Assembly: GCF_020097835.1 (NCBI RefSeq)
Contig: NZ_CP083666.1
Coordinates: 1,488,001-1,552,000 of the forward strand
Length of the DNA stretch: 64,000 nucleotides
DNA from: Haloprofundus halobius
GTDB lineage: Archaea; Halobacteriota; Halobacteria; Halobacteriales; Haloferacaceae
Direction of reading: 5' to 3'
The position numbers were made by a program, and so were the translations under genes. The notes under the pieces were generated by a model. It worked only from the letters and a program-made list of their open reading frames with translations, was not told the origin of the DNA and made no database searches. Below are positions 39,881 through 50,240 of this stretch, one piece after another. Within the stretch, counting starts at the first letter, position 1. Every line of letters starts with the position of its first letter.

Positions 39881-40279
39881 CTACCGCCGTCCGTACCCCC
39901 ACTCTTCCATCACGTCGACGACGTCGTCGACGTTTCTGAGTCCGGCCGTGACGACCGCTTCGCGCACGTCGAGCGACATCACGTCGTCGCCGTCGAATCG
40001 GCCGTCGAGGTCGCGTTCGAGCGCGTCGAGTCGCTCCGTCGTCGTCGGCCTGACGTAGACCGGCAACGCGTCGCGGTCGGCTTTCACCGTCCGACGCGCG
40101 AAGATGAACGGCAGCGAGGCGGTTCCGTTCGTCTCCTCTCCCTCTTCGCCGGTCGACTCCGTCTCGGCCGGCGAGTCACGGTCAGGAGACGACACCTCGG
40201 TACCGTTCTCGGCCGCCTCGGGCGTCGGGACGTCGCCGTAGGTGTCGCCGGCCGCGCCGTAACGATCGTCTTTCGTCAT
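39881..40279 (-). CDS. ParA-associated acidic protein (possible ParB-like partner)
   Basis: The 132-residue protein is coupled to parA by an ATGA overlap of its start with the parA stop. The first 60 residues are acidic and probably disordered (AENGTEVSSPDRDSPAETES). The second half has LPVYVRPTTTERLDALERDL and VMSLDVREAVVTAGLRNVDD, which could fold into helices like a small DNA-binding or adaptor domain, ending VVDVMEEWGYGRR. Partner genes of archaeal ParA proteins are usually short, poorly conserved and placed just so. A DNA-binding or adaptor role is likely, but no known helix-turn-helix or ribbon can be proven. Confidence 0.75.
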   Translation of the reverse strand: MTKDDRYGAAGDTYGDVPTPEAAENGTEVSSPDRDSPAETESTGEEGEETNGTASLPFIFARRTVKADRDALPVYVRPTTTERLDALERDLDGRFDGDDVMSLDVREAVVTAGLRNVDDVVDVMEEWGYGRR

Positions 40280-41121
40280 TGCGCCACCTCCACGTCGACG
40301 GCCGCCTCGACGCTCCCGCGTTCGACGATGCGGGCGACGGTGTCGAACTGGTCGAGTAGGTCCTCCTCGTACGGTCGGAGGTCTCTCGTTTCGGGACTGT
40401 CGGCGAACTCGAAGACGTTCATGTGGTTGCGCCACGCCTCCTTCAGCACGTCGCGCTTCCGGATGCCGAACGGCGTCACCGGTTTGCCGTTCGACTCCAG
40501 TTCGTCGCGGACTTCCCTATAGATGTTCGAGTCGCCGACTTCGTTGGGGACGACGGCCAAGATGCCGAGCGCGAACGACTCGTCGAACGTCCGGAAGCCG
40601 CGTTCCATGCTGTCGAGGGTGTCCTCCAGTCCGTCGATGGAGACGCTCCCCTTCCGCGTCAACTCGATAGGGATGACGACGTCGCGCGCGGCGACCAGCG
40701 CGTTGTCGACGAGGACGTTCAGCGTCGCCGGCGGGTCGACGAGGAAGTAGTCGTACTCGCTCGCCAGCGGCGCGAGCGACGAGCGCAACTGGAACTCCCG
40801 CAGCGAGGTGTTGCGCGCGGCCATCTCGCTCTCGATGTTCGCCAACCCCTCGTGTGAGGGAACTAAATCGAAGTGGCCCGCGTCGACGACGAGTTCGCTC
40901 GCGTCGCGCTCCTGGTCGAGGAGTACGTCGCCGAGGTGGTCGTCGTCGGTCGTCTTCAGATCGCCGAAGCCGACGTGGTCGGTCAGACTGCCGAGTTGGG
41001 GGTCCAAGTCGACGACGAGAACGTCCGCGTCCCGTCGTCCGAGCGCGGCGGCCGTGTTCGTCGCCATCGTCGTCTTCCCGACGCCGCCGGATTCGCTCCA
41101 CATCGTCACTGCCCGTTTCAT
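40276..41121 (-). CDS. parA: ParA family ATPase
   Basis: ParA proteins are deviant-Walker ATPases that move DNA or protein cargo over the nucleoid. The 281-residue chain starts MKRAVTMWSESGGVGKTTMA, with a deviant Walker A (ESGGVGKTT, about residues 9-17). LVVDLDPQLGSLTDHVG carries the Asp of Walker A', and YFLVDPPATLNVLVDNALVA carries Walker B. It lacks an N-terminal HTH, as in type Ib ParA. The ATG at 41121 has a clear TATA 27 nt upstream. The following gene overlaps by 4 nt. Such pairs occur beside replication origins or on secondary replicons, but no orc1/cdc6 gene is in the window, so a chromosomal positioning role is possible. Confidence 0.9.
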   Translation of the reverse strand: MKRAVTMWSESGGVGKTTMATNTAAALGRRDADVLVVDLDPQLGSLTDHVGFGDLKTTDDDHLGDVLLDQERDASELVVDAGHFDLVPSHEGLANIESEMAARNTSLREFQLRSSLAPLASEYDYFLVDPPATLNVLVDNALVAARDVVIPIELTRKGSVSIDGLEDTLDSMERGFRTFDESFALGILAVVPNEVGDSNIYREVRDELESNGKPVTPFGIRKRDVLKEAWRNHMNVFEFADSPETRDLRPYEEDLLDQFDTVARIVERGSVEAAVDVEVAQ

Positions 41122-41142: not shown

Positions 41143-41153
41143 GCATATAAAGC
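41143..41153 (-). promoter_or_regulatory. TATA element for parA
   Basis: GCTTTATATGC on the reverse strand is centred about 27 nt before the parA ATG at 41121, a textbook leaderless spacing. Confidence 0.75.
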
Positions 41154-41196
41154 TCCGTCAGACGGTCGTACCCTCCGGTCTCCCCAGTAAGCCCTG

Positions 41197-41265
41197 TAGA
41201 TAGCCATCTACCGATATATACAGAGATATATCTATACAGCTCTCCGAAACGGTTAGCAGATAACC
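41197..41265. repeat. AT-rich cluster of palindromes upstream of parA
   Basis: Within 69 nt there are three inverted repeats: TAGATAGCCATCTA (41197-41210, 5-nt arms), AGATATATCT (41224-41233, perfect), and GGTTAGCAGATAACC (41251-41265, 5-nt arms). Runs of TATA between them make this the most AT-rich spot around. It lies between the end of thiC and the parA promoter, so it could be a partition (parS-like) site, an operator for parA, or partly a thiC terminator. Nothing similar is seen elsewhere in the window. Confidence 0.5.
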
Positions 41266-41335
41266 GGCAGACTGCTCCGCGATAGGGCGGGCGTGTAGAG
41301 ATCGAACGTCCGACTGTCACTCCCGCGCGCCGTGA

Positions 41336-49172: not shown

Positions 49173-49188
49173 AGTGACCCCACTCTAC

Positions 49189-49614
49189 ATGAACTATCTG
49201 CCGTGGGCACTCTTGGCGCTCGTCACCTACACGCTGGTCGCGCCGCTGATGAACTTCGCGACGACCGGCAACTCGGCGGTGCCGAGCAACGTCGCGACGC
49301 TGATGTCGAACACGATTCTCGTCCTCGTCACGCTCGGACTCGTCGCGTTCACCGACGAGAACGCGGTGAGCTACATCGCGCACCCGAAGTCGCCGTACGT
49401 CTATATCGCCGGTCTCTGTCTCTCCATCGGCATTCTCTCGTACTACCGAGCGCTCTCACTCGGCGACGTGAGCGTCGTCACCCCCGTCTTCGGTATGTTC
49501 CTCGTGACGAGTTCGGTCCTCGGAATGCTCTTTCTGAACGAGTCGGTCACCGCGCGCAAGGTCGCCGGAATCCTGCTCGCCGTCGTCGCCGTCTACCTCG
49601 TCTCCGTCGAGTGA
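49189..49614 (+). CDS. Half-size EamA/DMT-type transporter
   Basis: The 141-residue protein begins MNYLPWALLALVTYTLVAPL and has four or five hydrophobic segments, including VATLMSNTILVLVTLGLVAF and YVYIAGLCLSIGILSYYRAL. The final pair is VSVVTPVFGMFLVTSSVLGM and VTARKVAGILLAVVAVYLVS. The motif RALSLGDVSVVTPVF is typical of EamA repeats in drug/metabolite transporters. Because it is one repeat only, it would act as a dimer. Its ligand is unknown. The ATG at 49189 is preferred to a GTG at 49174 because a TATA lies about 28 nt upstream. A 14-nt direct repeat covers that promoter. Confidence 0.8.
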   Translation: MNYLPWALLALVTYTLVAPLMNFATTGNSAVPSNVATLMSNTILVLVTLGLVAFTDENAVSYIAHPKSPYVYIAGLCLSIGILSYYRALSLGDVSVVTPVFGMFLVTSSVLGMLFLNESVTARKVAGILLAVVAVYLVSVE

Positions 49615-49769
49615 GTCCGCTCGGCGCACTCCGTCGGCGGTGCGGAACTGCGCTCCTCCCCATCCGTGCATACGTCAGTAAGGATACCTCCCAATATATC
49701 TGGAAAGGTATACAGAAATACAGGAGGCTATCCACGGAGATGCGGCCGAGCGAACCCGCTCACGGAGCG

Positions 49770-50207
49770 CTACTGCTCCGCGCGGATCGATTCGAGCGTT
49801 CCCCGAGCGTTCTCGACGGCGGTCTCGCGTTTGGCCGGATACGCTTCGACCTTCGCGCGGAGCGTGATTCCCTCGCCGAGTCGCACGTCGCCTTTGAACG
49901 CCGCCTGCTTGTCGAGGCGGACGAAGAAGGAGCAGTTGTCGTCGACCCTGTCATCGAGTTCCGCGAGGAGGCGGTCGAGTTCGTCGAGTTCGCTCAGTCG
50001 CGAGAGCACGTGTCGAAGGTCGTCAGCCTTCTCGACGCGCGTCGAGAGGATGACGATTCGGTCGCCGTGGTAACCCGTGTTCTCGACACGCTCCAACTCG
50101 AACTCCTCGGGGAGAAACGTCCGAAGCGCCTCCTCCACCCGCTTCTCGTCTTCGGTCGCGTAGCAGAAACTCCGCAGGTCGATGTAGTGAAACGGAACGC
50201 TCGCCAT
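49770..50207 (-). CDS. RNA-binding protein, COG1325-like (L5-type fold)
   Basis: The 145-residue protein starts MASVPFHYIDLRSFCYATED, the opening of an archaeal family predicted to bind RNA with an L5-like fold and linked by context to the exosome in some archaea. Next come KRVEEALRTFLPEEFELERV, NTGYHGDRIVILSTRVEKAD and LDDRVDDNCSFFVRLDKQAA. The KLDKQ-type strand and the end GEGITLRAKVEAYPAKRE are shared features. It is cytoplasmic and has no membrane segment. The gene converges with the EamA-type gene and lies downstream of a small DUF1918-type gene on the same strand. The exact RNA target is unknown. Confidence 0.78.
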   Translation of the reverse strand: MASVPFHYIDLRSFCYATEDEKRVEEALRTFLPEEFELERVENTGYHGDRIVILSTRVEKADDLRHVLSRLSELDELDRLLAELDDRVDDNCSFFVRLDKQAAFKGDVRLGEGITLRAKVEAYPAKRETAVENARGTLESIRAEQ

Positions 50208-50240
50208 GGTCACGATAGGCGGAGCGAAGGGAAAAAAGCC

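Follow-up and report, generated by a model that had tools for sequence, protein, structure and literature searches.

In Sulfolobus, the sites of SegB, a protein with a ribbon-helix-helix fold (PMC9178275), are single 13-bp palindromes (TCTAGASTCTAGA), approximately 83% of which are intragenic, with some 46 sites per S. solfataricus chromosome (PMC12284271). ParA-type ATPases carry a deviant Walker A motif, KGGxxK[S/T], with a signature lysine (PMC9178275), and the plasmid partition system ParF/ParG is treated in the same work. In type Ib partition, exemplified by ParF/ParG of TP228 and delta/omega of pSM19035, a small partner protein with a variable N-terminus is encoded after parA, and short phased centromere repeats are located upstream. 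For haloarchaeal ParA proteins, no target site has been reported in the open-access literature that we searched, and how DNA is handed out at division in haloarchaea, with their many chromosome copies, is the open question addressed here.

We analyzed a locus of Haloprofundus halobius at which a parA gene is preceded by an array of 12-bp units. The array is likely (probability approximately 0.77) to be a parS-like site, one of about six that make up a multi-site chromosomal centromere of ParA and its partner protein, although binding by the partner and a function in segregation are inferred and no binding data are available. The genera concerned have been cultured, and for them the analysis supplies exact coordinates of candidate centromeres, together with a mutable code and a protein that is a candidate for binding it.

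An array of 12-bp units upstream of parA

The window, that is, the whole stretch of DNA analyzed (64,000 nucleotides, G000:C1:1488001-1552000), is part of the 3.226-Mb contig C1 of a genome of 5 contigs. A preliminary description of the window reported 3 inverted repeats at 41197–41265, in the most AT-rich part of the neighborhood and adjoining a parA gene with a coupled partner, and all 3 observations held. The repeats are TAGAT-N4-ATCTA (41197–41210), GATATAT-N6-ATATATC (41213–41232), and CGGTTA-N5-TAACCG (41250–41266, called as 41251–41265 by the greedy count). When perfect repeats with arms of at least 5 and loops of at most 8 were counted greedily, 3 repeats were reached by 7 of 5000 shuffles and, among 2768 further 69-nt windows from the same 64 kb, by 28; the summed arm length was equalled by 1 of 5000 shuffles and 12 of 2768 windows. 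The GC content of the 69 nt is 39%, and the 69-nt window with the lowest GC content between 36 and 46 kb begins at 41195.

The wording "palindrome cluster" held only in part, because the palindromes belong to a larger structure, a degenerate array in which six units follow one another with a 12-bp period. It occupies 41191–41262 on the minus strand, immediately upstream of the parA promoter, and is recognized by a position weight matrix (PWM) and, over most of its length, by model R1. In the parA orientation, the units read TATCTGCTAACC GTTTCGGAGAGC TGTATAGATATA TCTCTGTATATA TCGGTAGATGGC TATCTACAGGGC, with a consensus of approximately TATCTRGATAGC. The 12-bp PWM, trained on 13 loci, all of them outside Haloprofundus, converged to TATCTAGATAGC (parA orientation), in which TATC-NN-GATA and GATA-NN-TATC are both palindromic, and this accounts for the palindromes noticed initially. 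The PWM score of 41191–41262 is 31.9 bits, a value not reached by any of 2000 shuffles of these 72 nt (mean −13.1, sd 5.2, maximum 20.0). R1, a sequence-only model of 16 parA-upstream arrays from which the site under study was left out and which was searched in whole genomes, matches the window at 41193–41245 with 21.6 bits (E 1.1e-5); E-values of R1 are rough, owing to a short calibration. The array is worn and, taken by itself, displays the 12-bp period only weakly: the best lags were 20 and 8 in one analysis and 9 in another, with lag 12 in third place. The unit is better described as a 12-bp quasi-palindromic iteron than as a cluster of palindromes.

The parA gene, its promoter and the partner protein

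The parA gene (40276–41121, minus strand) encodes a Walker ATPase of 281 aa (Pfam AAA_31, 9.7e-31; CbiA, 1.5e-16). The PDB chains closest to it are those of ParA/Soj, as expected of a ParA/MinD-superfamily ATPase; bacterial ParA/Soj chains match at E 2.6e-21, compared with E 1.7e-6 for 7dut_A, which we take to be SegA. The P-loop, SGGVGKT, is devoid of the signature lysine and fails the KGGxxK[S/T] motif. In the 44 ParA proteins compared, the corresponding position is occupied by S (26 proteins) or A (18) and never by lysine. Whether these proteins follow the canonical ATP cycle is therefore uncertain, and their ATPase cycle may depart from it, a possibility inferred from the sequences only.

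A TATA-box-like element (TTTATATGC; 41143–41151, minus strand) is located approximately 22–30 nt before the parA ATG, and the promoters of orthologues have a TTTAT element at the corresponding place; judging from sequence alone, the parA transcript is probably leaderless. Upstream of this element, 42 nt before the ATG, lies GTCTGAC (41157–41163, minus strand), which is conserved among parA promoters. It was found in 36 of 44 parA loci, always at −42 to −45 from the parA start and nowhere else within up to 600 nt, and is common to loci with 12-bp arrays and to those with the 13-bp arrays described below. It could be a promoter element or a second operator.

The partner gene (39881–40279, minus strand; 132 aa) overlaps parA by 4 nt, and we propose its product as the centromere-binding protein, for which there are no binding data. 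A partner ORF follows parA directly in all 25 loci examined, with an overlap of 4 nt in 18 and 1 nt in 7, and a hypothetical protein comes next after ParA in 18 of 18 annotated plasmid records. The partner begins with a conserved segment, which reads MTKDDRYG in most of its close relatives; its middle part is acidic and variable, and its C-terminal domain is again conserved. In the AlphaFold monomer, the N-terminus is acidic and modelled with low confidence, and the C-terminal domain is confident (block means 76–91) and consists of an extended segment followed by helices 78–94, 102–112, and 117–126. No curated Pfam or NCBIfam family, ParB-type families included, convincingly matched the partner or its 26 relatives, so that among the curated families searched it belongs to none that has been described. 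Foldseek with the partner model returned no structure at E ≤ 0.001. The best VIA match was an HBS1-like domain (Z 6.0, rmsd 5.6, 64 aligned), followed by UBA domains, which are common arrangements. Partner profiles A1 and A4 matched no PDB chain named SegB, and a direct sequence comparison with SegB was not made; phage relatives of the partner were not found. A ribbon-helix-helix fold, plausible by eye, was not borne out, as hhalign to 7 RHH_1 domains of the same genome yielded probabilities of only 0.8–1.0%. That the partner might be a ribbon-helix-helix protein like SegB is no more than a guess by analogy.

In Haloprofundus, Halegenticoccus, and Halogranum, the module is consistently followed, as far as the loci extend, by genes for a HalX response regulator, a TrmB regulator, and IMP dehydrogenase, and its chromosomal position is therefore old. 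We also considered the array as a target of the HalX regulator and rejected this candidate, because the HalX gene was not found at the Haladaptatus and Halomicrococcus loci, which have arrays too.

Arrays precede parA orthologues in several genera

Arrays of the 12-bp type precede the close parA orthologues that we found in Haloprofundus, Halegenticoccus, Halogranum, Haladaptatus, and Halomicrococcus, on chromosomes or plasmids, the latter including plasmids of 394–540 kb. Upstream of orthologues of at least 75% identity, the letters vary and the AT-rich array is retained. Self-similarity across 18 such parA-upstream regions peaks at lag 12 (mean z 3.85), followed by lag 24 (2.35); lag 12 ranks first in 13 of the 18 and has z ≥ 1.3 in all of them. 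Under strict cut-offs, parA matches were obtained in 11 of 148 genomes of the family (one being only 46% identical) and in 9 of 391 genomes of the class; most haloarchaea live without this orthologue.

Strong arrays are present in 12 of 12 genomes with a parA orthologue. When R1 was searched in 28 further genomes, all 7 with an orthologue (two Halegenticoccus, three Halogranum, and two Haladaptatus-like) were strongly matched, with best E-values of 3.4e-7 to 7.0e-11. The other 21, lacking the orthologue, had no match at E ≤ 0.01, and 18 of them had none at E ≤ 0.1; the best E-values in the remaining 3 were 0.015–0.057. For 4 of the 21, the first pass scored only 150 of a larger number of candidates.

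The chromosome of Haladaptatus pallidirubidus has two parA loci (L022, L023) with identical upstream DNA. All three Halogranum genomes have an array of the chromosomal code approximately 7–9 kb from a second, 45%-identical parA (L103, L099, L112). A further 45%-identical parA on Halogranum contig C8 (L013) has no array, and the next protein is unrelated-looking, with a C-terminal hydrophobic stretch.

Dispersed arrays occupy conserved places of the parA replicon

The check for the same repeats elsewhere on the chromosome, proposed in the preliminary description, was run and showed the array to be one of about six. Within the window, the 12 best PWM positions per strand, both strands of the 64 kb being scanned, form only two clusters, the parA site and approximately 49647–49754. 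The second array, S+8, has the same code and spans 49659–49742 (R1 match at 49693–49720). It lies between the convergent 3' ends of 49174–49614 (plus strand), the product of which is possibly transporter-like as read from its translation, and 49770–50213 (minus strand), and is for this reason no ordinary operator. The S+8 place was matched in 4 other Haloprofundus and 2 Halegenticoccus genomes; its genome-wide E-value is only 0.053 here, and its counterparts in the four other species reach 4.8e-4 to 5.7e-7.

Genome-wide, R1 identified six places, all on C1: 1,073,372; 1,234,300; 1,529,193 (parA); 1,537,693; 1,576,632; and 1,719,201. All have E ≤ 0.01 except S+8. They span an arc of 646 kb, or 20% of C1 (p 0.0018 for six random places that close). 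The 5 Haloprofundus genomes, each of which has R1 places, total 32 at E ≤ 1, and 29 of these fall into six groups according to our own grouping by distance from parA: the parA site itself and approximately +8, +47 to +57, +165 to +194, −257 to −295, and −415 to −456 kb. The three places outside all groups are weak (G010 935721, G010 9389, and G055 2111079). At the five non-parA places, the flanks had a blastn match between this genome and the other Haloprofundus species at 18 of 19 loci; the long flank matches are 82–91% identical, and 12 of the 18 alignments are interrupted at the array, whereas 6 continue through it. Among individual places, no S+190 place was found in G070 at E ≤ 1, that of G036 is supported by distance only, its flanks having no match to the locus studied here, and just one flank matches at the S-295 locus of G070. 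Thus, the places of the arrays are conserved while, in most comparisons, their letters turn over, which marks the sites as old and under selection.

Of the 28 non-parA places retrieved from Halegenticoccus and Halogranum, which did not include G042:C9:54426 (E 0.098), 27 belong to nine synteny clusters defined by flanking proteins, and the remaining one is a TA run. Each cluster comprises two to five genomes, never with two places per genome, and two clusters correspond to the Haloprofundus places S+8 (both flanks) and S-455 (one flank). In the set of 51 dispersed arrays, from which the TA run L158 was excluded, the lag-12 signal has a mean z of 3.79 and exceeds 1.64 in 50 arrays, although the model that selected them already includes this period; for coding DNA, the mean z is 1.05, with 30 of 102 windows above 1.64. 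In the genome studied here as well as in G055, G036, and G365, every place is on the parA-bearing contig and none on another. The five places of G365 are all on its 364-kb parA contig, four of them within approximately 2 kb of parA.

Two orc1 genes of C1, at 0.949 and 1.751 Mb (L135, L136), are flanked by strong inverted origin-like repeats, which were also found at other orc1 genes of this contig.

Other haloarchaeal replicons have arrays of their own

We examined 18 other haloarchaeal parA loci, namely those of 16 plasmid records and of contigs C2 and C3 of the same genome (L034 and L035 duplicate the latter two and were not counted). In 14 of them the arrays have a period of 13 bp, the best lag being 13 or 26; the remaining 4 either belong to the 12-bp type or are ambiguous. 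The 13-bp arrays upstream of plasmid parA genes, including that of pNRC200, differ in their letters from the chromosomal code (L034/L039 for C2, L035/L040 for C3, L046-L054, and L056-L058), and C1, C2, and C3 bear three different array codes. Related parA/partner pairs with arrays of their own are frequent on haloarchaeal plasmids. No clear period was obtained for L014-L016 in the array analysis.

Only slightly more likely than not is a bolder reading in which several elements hold jointly for the haloarchaeal chromosomes of this lineage: a multi-site, ParA-driven centromere of 12-bp iterons read by an undescribed protein family, a separate code for each replicon (12 bp for the chromosome and 13 bp for the two plasmids) permitting independent sorting in polyploid cells, and ParA proteins that function without the signature lysine.

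A proposed centromere-like site and its alternatives

The sequences compared show the array and its 12-bp period, the presence of such arrays ahead of close parA orthologues and at dispersed, conserved places on the parA replicon, and their joint occurrence with parA and the partner. Binding by the partner is inferred, as are its fold, the cycle of the ATPase, and segregation in the cell. The centromere-like reading of the preliminary description is strongly supported by genome comparison, because the arrays lie upstream of orthologous parA genes and at several conserved places, are confined to the parA replicon, and are absent (at E ≤ 0.01) where parA is missing. The 12-bp arrays also provide the cis repeats near the operon that are expected of type I partition, although their action as a centromere is an inference. 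Against this reading stand the lack of binding, localization, or stability data, the degenerate state of the array, the weak genome-wide score of S+8 in this genome, a partner without a DNA-binding family, ParA proteins devoid of the signature lysine, and the rarity of parA.

If the reading is correct, partner dimers would occupy adjacent 12-bp quasi-palindromic units and so coat each array, and their flexible N-termini would contact nucleoid-bound ParA and stimulate its ATPase. ParA gradients would then draw apart the decorated regions of the chromosome copies. The 12-bp step would turn each bound unit by approximately 50 degrees (arithmetic on a 10.5-bp helix), so that the protein coat of an array would follow a helical path around the DNA. 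The promoter-proximal array probably doubles as an autoregulatory operator of parA.

One alternative to a centromere is that the arrays are chromosome-organizing (loop or compartment) sites which employ ParA and the partner without segregating DNA. The sites are dispersed on a single chromosome, SegB of Sulfolobus both organizes and segregates (PMC12284271), haloarchaea are highly polyploid (PMC5120986), such that strict segregation may matter less, and a general organizing role would produce an identical pattern. Nevertheless, we consider it unlikely, given that the same arrays accompany close orthologues on the 394–540 kb plasmids, where maintenance is the expected role, and that many haloarchaeal plasmids carry related parA/partner pairs, likewise preceded by arrays. 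Also unlikely is a role solely as the operator through which the partner represses parA. Partition operons are usually autoregulated, and the array is directly upstream of the parA TATA box; however, five more arrays are far from parA, and the one in the window, between convergent 3' ends, has no neighboring promoter to control.

Sites of the Orc1/Cdc6 replication initiator, or origin iterons, would likewise be repeated and AT-rich, and the arrays of this genome are located between the orc1 genes at 0.949 and 1.751 Mb. Yet the repeats adjoining these two genes are different, being inverted and approximately 20–28 nt long (TTCACCGGAAACGTGGTGTGT; CACACCAGTTTGCAAATGTTC), the closest array is approximately 31 kb from them, and the arrays track parA, whereas orc1 is present in every Haloprofundus genome and in three well-known control genomes, which renders this explanation very improbable. 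Two others can be practically dismissed. A thiC transcription terminator, which the preliminary description had named as an explanation that would refute its reading, is suggested by the position of thiC, which is encoded on the same strand and has its stop codon approximately 73 nt before the array. However, thiC adjoins parA only in this genome, yet the orthologues have upstream arrays, no terminator-like pattern was found, and RNA of the thiC strand does not fold better than shuffles (z −0.83); RNA of the opposite strand folds somewhat better (z −2.44), as expected from DNA palindromes. Finally, short palindromes abound in AT-rich DNA and could have arisen by chance in an AT-rich spacer, but none of the 2000 shuffles attains the PWM score, the code and the places are conserved across genera, and the 21 control genomes are negative at E ≤ 0.01. 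A multi-site centromere of ParA and its partner thus remains our preferred reading.

Comparison with known partition systems

Bacterial chromosomal ParABS systems (ParA/Soj, ParB/Spo0J, and parS; PMC9178275) share with the haloarchaeal locus a ParA ATPase, an adjacent partner, and several cis sites per chromosome, but here the partner is no recognizable ParB, iteron arrays take the place of single parS sites, and the signature lysine is absent. The small partner with its variable N-terminus after parA and the phased repeats upstream resemble type Ib partition, from which the locus differs in its unit of 12 bp (13 bp in sister clades), its chromosomal location, and its multiple sites, and in that the partner has not been shown to be a ribbon-helix-helix protein. 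Direct repeats upstream of parAB also act in the maintenance of the secondary replicons of the bacterium Deinococcus radiodurans (PMC7671480). The AspA-ParBA system of pNOB8 is likewise an archaeal ParA partition system with a centromere-binding protein other than a classical ParB, but it comprises three genes, and AspA, a winged-helix protein, binds one 23-bp palindrome and spreads (PMC5120986).

The likeness to SegAB of Sulfolobales extends to a ParA-type ATPase gene overlapping that of a small DNA-binding partner (binding being inferred in our case), to numerous partner sites scattered over the chromosome, some of which are close to the locus, and to a palindromic motif rich in TCTAGA (PMC12284271). 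TCTAGA, a palindrome frequent in the 51 dispersed arrays, likewise forms the half-unit of the Sulfolobus SegB site; this could reflect shared recognition or, just as possibly, coincidence. By contrast with SegAB, the haloarchaeal system has arrays of 12-bp units, about six in number and for the most part intergenic, its ParA is nearer to bacterial ParA/Soj than to 7dut_A, and no similarity of the partner to SegB was found in the profile searches of the PDB. SegAB is thus the closest precedent for the dispersed sites, but not for the way in which the sites are built, their intergenic location, or the partner. Partition of the ParA kind is already known; what is likely new, with the function inferred, are the multi-site arrays of 12-bp units and the undescribed partner in haloarchaea.
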